Notes under the pieces: generated by a model
Databases searched by the model: none
What the model was told of the DNA's origin: nothing
Seen by the model: the letters and a program-made list of their open reading frames with translations, nothing else
Part shown: positions 2,891 to 51,507 of the stretch, one piece after another
Layout of the letters: each line of letters begins with the position of its first letter
How positions within the stretch are numbered: the stretch's first letter is position 1
Source: Natronolimnobius baerhuensis
GTDB lineage: Archaea; Halobacteriota; Halobacteria; Halobacteriales; Natrialbaceae
Reading direction: 5' to 3'
Length of the DNA stretch: 64,000 nucleotides
Assembly: GCF_002177135.1 (NCBI RefSeq)
Contig: NZ_MWPH01000001.1
Location: 372,001-436,000 of the forward strand
Program-made: the position numbers and the translations under genes

Positions 2891-2918
2891 GCATGGCTCA
2901 GCGGTCGCGCACATATAT

Positions 2919-3071
2919 CGTAGCCACTGCAGGTCACTGCAGACCTGATCGCACGACAGGAGCGCGGTTCGGAGTAAGCGAAGCGAACGAGAACCGCGGA
3001 CAAGCGAACGGGCACGATGTGCCCGTGAGTCGGCTGTGCGATCAGTGTGTCACTCGTTGCAGTTGGTACTC
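2919..3071 (+). repeat. Dispersed terminal-inverted-repeat element, copy 1
   Basis: About 153 bp. The left end (GTAGCCACTGCA, then ACCTGATCGCAC) is the imperfect inverse of the right end (GTGCGATCAGTGTG, then TGCAGTTGGTAC). The core includes GCGGTTCGGAGT and GAACCGCGG. Two other copies in the same orientation lie at 49991-50150 and 51322-51507. No convincing coding content; it resembles a MITE or a structured intergenic repeat. A further right-end-like fragment, GATCAGTGTGTACATCG, follows at about 3119-3155. The rest of the gap to 3269 holds nothing recognisable. Confidence 0.75.
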
Positions 3072-3269
3072 TAGTCGCATCTTGAAAGTCAGGACAAACA
3101 ATCGTAGGATGGCGTTTCGATCAGTGTGTACATCGTTTCAAGCAGTATTATACGGCTGCCTTTTTCCTGGGTATCTCTGGCCTACCGCGACCACAGGCGG
3201 CCGAGATGGAATTGGGATGGCCTCGAGGCACAGTCGTGAATCATCCGAACACGGGGGGTGCGTTGTGAG

Positions 3270-49990: not shown

Positions 49991-50150
49991 TATAGTAGCT
50001 ACTGCAAGTCAATGCACACCTGATCGCCAGACGGATGCGCGGTTCGGAGTGAACGAAGTGAGCGAGAACCGCGGAAAAGCGAGCGGCGAACGCAGTGAAC
50101 CGCGAGCAGGATCGGCGATCAGTGTGTAAATAGTTGCAGTTGTTACTATA
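49991..50150 (+). repeat. Dispersed terminal-inverted-repeat element, copy 2
   Basis: 160 bp with the clearest ends of the three copies: TATAGTAGCTACTGCAA (49991-50007) and TTGCAGTTGTTACTATA (50134-50150), which pair at 14 of 17 positions. ACCTGATCGCC and GGCGATCAGTGTG form a second inverted pair inside. The centre contains GCGGTTCGGAGTGAACG and GAACCGCGG. It lies 13 bases after the end of the aspartoacylase-family gene. Confidence 0.78.
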
Positions 50151-50163
50151 TGACAACGCAGAA

Positions 50164-51279
50164 TCACTCCTGTTGTCTCAACTTCGACTGTGACCGTTCT
50201 TCGGTATGTTCGCGCTCGAGGGCAACCTGCGTGTCCGGCGAGAGCCCGACAAGGTGACAGAGCGGGTTCCCGGGGTAGACGACGGGATTCTCGAGGACGC
50301 CGACGACGAGGCCGGTAAAGGGTGCTTCGACGGAGACGATGTCCTCTTCTTCCTTAAACGGGTTTGTGATCGAACAGATCACGTCGCCTTCCCTGACGAG
50401 TTCGCCGCGACCGTGTTTCATGTCGACGATACCGCCCGCGTCGGCGCGAATCCAGGTTTTCTTGCTCGAGTCGTCGATGAGGGTGCGCCAGCCCGGCCAG
50501 TGAACCGACGAATCGGGATGGCAGCCGAACTCGGCAAGGATGCTCGCAACGCCGGTCAGCGCGCGGTCGATGAGGCGGCGCTGGAAGCGGTGGGCCTCAC
50601 CCATTTCGACGGTGATTGTCGGGACGCCGGCGTCGGTTGCTTCGCGCCGGAGGGTTCCGGAGGGACCTTCGCCGCCGATGATGACGTTCGAACTGAACGC
50701 GTTGGCGAGGCGGGCGACCTGGCCATTGTCCATGTTGGCTCGAACGTGGAGCATGTTGGTTCGCCCGCGCGTTGACGTATGAAAGTCGATCCCCAGATCG
50801 CATGGTTCGATGAAGTTCGTAAAGATGCGGTGAGCCATCCGGCGGGCGCTTGTCGAGCCTTCGCGGCCGGGAAACGACCGATTCAGGTCCCGGTCGTAGA
50901 TCGGCAGATACCGCTCTTGGGCGAGAAAGCCCGGGACGTTCATCACGGGCAGACAGACCAGCGTGCCGTGTAACTCGGCGTGATCCCAGTCGTGGGCGAC
51001 CTCGCGGACGACCTCGATCCCGTTGAGTTCGTCGCCATGGGCCGCCGCCGAAAGGAATACTGTCGGCCCAGGGTGTTTCCCGTTGACAATTGTCACCGGA
51101 ATTCTGACAGGGTCGCCCAGATACGTCTCGCTGATCCCATACCGAATATTCGCGGATTCGCCGGGGTCGACCCGCCCACCGTCGTAGGTAAAGGCCTCCT
51201 CGAGGGCATCGGCGTCGGCAGTGGTTCCCCCGTCAGTGACGGGCATCGCACCGTCGACGTCCGAACCGTCGTCGCTCAT
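50164..51279 (-). CDS. Succinylglutamate desuccinylase/aspartoacylase family protein
   Basis: 371 residues, M14-like zinc hydrolase. Zinc-site pattern HGDELNG (His-x-x-Glu) near residue 80 and His in LGIDFHTSTRG; the family's DLNRSFPG stretch is present, and a Glu in ITVEMGEAHRF fits the catalytic base. The C-terminal 100 residues (GGIVDMKHGRGELVREGD to VYPGNPLCHLVG) are a biotinyl/lipoyl-like beta domain common in this family. Start 51279 is chosen over 51333, which would run into the repeat. Substrate (N-acyl amino acid) is unknown. The gene is bracketed by two copies of the same dispersed repeat. Confidence 0.87.
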   Translation of the reverse strand: MSDDGSDVDGAMPVTDGGTTADADALEEAFTYDGGRVDPGESANIRYGISETYLGDPVRIPVTIVNGKHPGPTVFLSAAAHGDELNGIEVVREVAHDWDHAELHGTLVCLPVMNVPGFLAQERYLPIYDRDLNRSFPGREGSTSARRMAHRIFTNFIEPCDLGIDFHTSTRGRTNMLHVRANMDNGQVARLANAFSSNVIIGGEGPSGTLRREATDAGVPTITVEMGEAHRFQRRLIDRALTGVASILAEFGCHPDSSVHWPGWRTLIDDSSKKTWIRADAGGIVDMKHGRGELVREGDVICSITNPFKEEEDIVSVEAPFTGLVVGVLENPVVYPGNPLCHLVGLSPDTQVALEREHTEERSQSKLRQQE

Positions 51280-51321
51280 ACCCACGTCTGGAGGGGGAGC
51301 AATGTGAATCTTGTCGTTAGC

Positions 51322-51507
51322 TATCGTAGCCACTGCACGTCAGTGCACACCTGATCGCCAGCGGGTGCGCGGCTCGGAGCGGACGCGGTTCGGGAGGAAT
51401 ACGCGGTTTGAAACGAACGTAGTGAGTGAGAACCGCGGCGAAGCGAACGGGCGTCCGTGCCCGTGAGCAGTTCAGTCATCAGTGTGTGAAGTATTGCAGT
51501 TACTGTA
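51322..51507 (+). repeat. Dispersed terminal-inverted-repeat element, copy 3
   Basis: About 186 bp. The left end TCGTAGCCACTGCACG, then ACACCTGATCGCC, and the right end ATCAGTGTGTGAAG, then TTGCAGTTACTGTA, match the other copies. The centre carries an extra stretch (GGACGCGGTTCGGGAGG) relative to copy 2, suggesting an internal insertion or duplication. Same orientation as copies 1 and 2; upstream of the aspartoacylase-family gene. Confidence 0.72.

Follow-up and report, generated by a model that had tools for sequence, protein, structure and literature searches.

Two direct copies of a non-coding repeat bracket a predicted zinc hydrolase gene in the 64,000-nucleotide stretch of Natronolimnobius baerhuensis DNA analysed here (the window), and the question raised by this arrangement is what the repeat is, and whether it has anything to do with the gene. 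The initial annotation of the window described three copies with shared ends and inner inverted arms, and considered a MITE mobilised by a transposase elsewhere, a structured RNA family, and a composite element or recombination cassette. All three copies are indeed present with these ends and arms, and no open reading frame is shared among them, as had been noted. The borders given for copy 2 and the start of copy 3 (51322) are exact, those of copy 1 are refined to 2916-3073, and the right end of copy 3 is degenerate; a fourth, decayed copy at ~3071-3153 had been missed. The features are listed below, where the TA duplication assigned to copy 2 is read from the empty sites of its sister copies.

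2916..3073, + strand: copy 1, long form, sitting at the left TA of an older copy
~3071..3153, + strand: fourth copy, a decayed 84-bp form abutting copy 1 (nhmmer match 3083-3149)
49991..50150, + strand: copy 2, an intact long-form MITE of 160 bp, with the family model matched fully at both ends
49991..50027, + strand: left arm of copy 2, TATAGTAGCTACTGCAA...CACACCTGATCGC, its outer TA forming one half of the TA duplication
50035..50110, + strand: extra loop core of copy 2, GCGCGGTTCGGAG...GAACCGCGG, ~76 bp, missing from 84-bp copies
50115..50150, + strand: right arm of copy 2, GCGATCAGTGTGT...TTGCAGTTGTTACTATA, its outer TA forming the second TA
50164..51333, - strand: aspartoacylase/succinylglutamate desuccinylase-type gene between copies 2 and 3 (PF24827, E=3e-49)
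51322..51507, + strand: copy 3, an older long form, with a degenerate right end near 51503-51507

The insertions in the window happened independently of one another and differ in age. Contig 2 of the same genome carries a copy with 99% identity to copy 2 (G000:C2:968805-968966), copy 1 has a 94% identical counterpart (G000:C4:65275-65432), and the fourth copy is found in a congener (G096) without copy 1. At the site of copy 3 this congener carries the 84-bp form (L409 1418-1501) rather than the long form seen in the window, and the loop core must therefore have been gained or lost in place. Tandem nesting, in which a MITE has used the terminal TA of an older MITE as its target, is seen in two genomes (window 2916-3153; L295 1454-1537).

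Anatomy, spread and recent movement of the family

The basic unit of the family consists of two imperfect arms of 36-37 bp and a short loop between them that is sometimes enlarged by a variable core. In its commonest form it appears as an 84-bp imperfect hairpin, 80 bp plus the duplicated TA on either side, with the layout TATAGTAGCCACTG.AAGTCA.TGCACACCTGATCGC - loop - GCGATCAGTGTGT.....GTT.CAGTTGTTACTATA. Long forms carry roughly 30-310 additional loop bases, including a GCGGTTC...GAACCGC core that blastn also finds alone, without arms, in the host's own genome; copies 1 to 3 of the window belong to this type, with ~75 or more extra loop bases. The GCGGTTCGGAG...GAACCGCGG core had been taken as a defining part of the repeat, a view that does not hold, because most copies are 84 bp long and lack it.

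BLASTN with copy 2 against its own genome and relatives, the check that the initial annotation had proposed, recovers many further copies. The own genome yields 73 matching pieces, with other places at E-values down to 2e-77, and the left-end pattern matches 52 times and the right-end pattern 55 times, against 0 for a reversed control pattern; since a few right-end matches are left ends read backwards, we estimate ~60 sites. A chance origin of the similarity is excluded by the blastn E-values and the pattern controls. The family is present in 95 of 125 Natrialbaceae genomes, and plasmids carry it in Natrialba magadii, Natrinema, Natronorubrum, Haloarcula hispanica, Halomicrobium and Halostella; neither end pattern has a match in IMG/VR, and none was found in phages. 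A short, non-coding repeat (84-bp consensus) with terminal inverted repeats, dispersed in multiple copies, is what a MITE is expected to be, and the family is a MITE, a non-autonomous DNA transposon that encodes nothing.

Movement can be followed directly at individual sites. In one Natrinema genome (G060) many 84-bp copies agree letter for letter while their flanks are unrelated, which indicates a recent burst. At four of its sites (L281, L291, L293 and L301) the filled locus reads TA-80 bp-TA, while in close relatives both flanks are joined by a single TA, a clean insertion of 82 bp. The long-form copy at C2:968805 of N. baerhuensis has an exact empty site in G096, again with a single TA, so that the comparison of orthologous loci with and without the element, likewise proposed at the outset, gives a TA target-site duplication at the five clearest sites. 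Older sites in two further genomes (G071 and G074) show net insertions near 82 bp, the remaining dinucleotide being CA, GA, TC or TA; one site in G060/G061 has CA in the empty state, and two further G060 sites have TG (in paralogues and relatives) and GA. Given a local divergence of 5-20% and the avoidance of the target word in these genomes, the deviating dinucleotides, mostly at older sites, are likely later substitutions; the TA model is weakest where CA recurs. A CA target with two bases lost, provisionally adopted from the older G071/G074 sites, was dropped because the youngest G060 sites show TA.

Target preference and IS630-type relatives

CTAG is the site of 40 of the 88 insertions whose ends are well preserved, and it accounts for 1.6% of NTAN across 1.3 Mb from two host genomes; 21 of 27 full-length IS630-family copies in the same genomes also sit in it. 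The IS630 transposase domain PF13358 is found in 75 of the 125 genomes, and the elements, ~1059 bp long, start with TATAGTAAC and end, as the reverse complement, with TATAGTAG. The MITE has the same asymmetry, with TATAGTAG at its left end and TATAGTAAC at its right. The IS630 3' end is identical to the MITE left arm at 21 of 29 positions (shuffle P=5e-5) and the 5' end to the right arm at 18 of 29 (P=0.002), a moderate consensus identity of 62-72%, with 24 of 29 bases (83%) for the best single 3' end. Haloarchaeal IS630 elements (such as the L367 copy) resemble the MITE in their ends and CTAG target, but they encode a transposase and differ in the inner 20 bp of their ends. The TA duplication and the terminal repeats, although the latter are related only moderately, are those of the IS630/Tc1-mariner group. 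MITE and IS630 also tend to occur together, IS630 being present in 64 of 95 genomes with the MITE versus 11 of 30 in which no MITE was detected (Fisher p=0.005, kinship not corrected).

The shared CTAG preference and asymmetric ends, together with the TA duplication, are best explained if an IS630-type enzyme mobilises the repeat in trans. A transposase of the IS630 family, supplied from another place in the cell, would recognise the ends TAGTAG.../TAGTAAC..., cut out the unit and insert it at TA, preferably within CTAG, and the insertion would duplicate the TA; this enzyme and its cut-and-paste steps we infer from sequence comparison. We consider it highly probable that the explanation is right as a whole, with MITEs moved in trans by an IS630-type transposase into TA/CTAG and the window copies arising as independent insertions. 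The proposal that a transposase elsewhere moves the repeat is thereby supported: the copies are many, a burst has left identical ones, empty sites and a TA duplication are seen, and the element has its ends and target in common with IS630.

The alternative is that the element owes its movement to a transposase of another family (e.g. of IS5/IS427 type) that likewise has TA or CTAG as its target, and that the likeness to IS630 is convergence at the outer bases. Searches for an autonomous element with fully matching ends found none, and no IS630 partner matches the arms throughout, the agreement being poor in their inner parts; in the own genome no autonomous copy was found, all ends examined being paired at a spacing of ~80-400 bp. 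G060, despite its recent burst, yielded only a dead DDE_3 fragment. With neither a fully matching autonomous partner nor more than this fragment in G060, the identity of the helper is one that we infer. At the same time, the asymmetric ends and CTAG preference are the same as those of IS630 copies in the very same genomes, and TA duplication is typical of IS630, so that we regard a helper from another family as unlikely.

Several observations concern the IS630 elements themselves. The own genome contains a full-length 1059-bp copy on contig 5 (L367 933-1991) with two overlapping open reading frames of 179 and 163 codons, the overlap lying just downstream of a run of A; the sequence suggests that programmed frameshifting may operate in this copy. 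In three genomes (L339, L349, L360) IS630 elements are inserted into CTAG inside MITE arms. All haloarchaeal genomes are poor in CTAG (PMC6471742), and one price of keeping the word may be IS630 elements together with their MITEs.

Hairpin structure and in-place inversion

The hairpin fold is strong (z -7.5), with 92.8% of cells in the stem paired, 82 compensatory cells versus 34+-4 in shuffles, a clear superiority to slid controls, and a conserved bulge (C30) and internal loop. These features would also suit an element kept by selection chiefly as a conserved structured RNA or a regulatory hairpin (a terminator, or a processing or mRNA-stability element), with mobility as a secondary trait, and they lend some substance to the structured RNA family raised by the initial annotation. 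An Rfam search of the window, however, returned only two tRNAs, with no match to the repeat above the gathering score; the element is missing from orthologous loci, and old shared copies decay and flip. We claim no RNA function, because related active lineages and exchange between their inverted arms can produce covariation without one, and we regard a primary RNA role as quite unlikely.

The flipping is seen at sites that share a junction between two species. Of nine such sites, four (L301/L338, L237/L221, L263/L274 and L268/L269) have the element in opposite orientations between the same flanks in the two species, with identities of 87-98% when one partner is inverted and 62-76% in the same orientation. 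No copy among ~222 gives a better match than the partner at any of the four, and at L263/L274 the outermost bases keep their orientation. Presumably the element inserted once and was later inverted when its hairpin arms exchanged or a template switch occurred between them; independent insertion in the opposite orientation at the same TA is disfavoured by the partner ranking at all four sites and by the outer bases left in place at one. Two further pairs, L074/L178 and L287/L330, were discarded as shared sites when a junction check showed different sites. Small stem-loop inversions are known from chloroplasts (PMC8893999), and inversion is reported for the Correia elements of Neisseria (cited in PMC10969869). 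As described there, the Correia repeat enclosed elements are likewise small hairpin MITEs that can invert in place, although they differ in sequence and host. A step further would be a reversible hairpin switch that flips in place via arm exchange, with its imperfect, bulged stem under selection and its orientation altering neighbouring gene expression throughout the family; this we hold to be very unlikely. Regardless of mechanism, inversion in place between close species calls for caution when such sites serve as markers.

The hydrolase gene and related short elements

A composite transposon or recombination cassette with the hydrolase gene as its cargo between copies 2 and 3, a reading suggested by the shared orientation of the copies and their spacing of ~1.2 kb, is contradicted by the data and very improbable: instead of two near-identical copies moving the DNA between them, copies 2 and 3 are 65% identical to each other and differ in age, copy 3 being an old insertion common to G096, where copy 2 is absent, and the gene is conserved in place without them, none of 66 orthologous loci having a flanking pair. 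The gene, 14 bp from copy 2, is a bystander, not cargo, and the bracket is a coincidence. At one of the 66 loci, in Natrialba swarupiae (L108), a separate MITE copy lies downstream of the hydrolase orthologue.

Among the closest known systems are other short elements of archaea. The IS630-derived, ISMma9-related MITE of Methanosarcina mazei (89 bp, 5 copies; PMC3852290) is likewise very short and non-coding, with inverted ends and an assignment to IS630; compared by description only, it differs in its few copies, its other archaeal class and the absence of any family-wide spread reported in that paper. Haloquadratum walsbyi has MITEs and short mobile repeats (SMRs), including the 80-bp HqIRS41, and, as in G060, MITEs have been reported there to be mobile although the genome offers them no functional helper (PMC3119063); these elements too are short, non-coding and mobile, with inverted ends and in some cases no functional transposase. 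SMRs, however, are described as lacking target duplication and having ends unrelated to transposons, a description from which the present family is set apart by its TA duplication and IS630-like ends. Its terminal inverted repeats and TA duplication likewise separate it from PATE/IS200-IS605 elements, which have subterminal palindromes, no terminal inverted repeats and no duplication. The family is new and clearly delimited, and it belongs to a known kind; as a class it is ordinary, while its spread, CTAG targeting and flipping are above average. A MITE that extends across the Natrialbaceae is thus defined with its recent mobility, exact borders, target and probable helper. Near the MITE at C2:968805, a further short repeat around TCTGGTCACAAGG recurs several times in both congeners (L398; G000 contig 2, ~968-974 kb).
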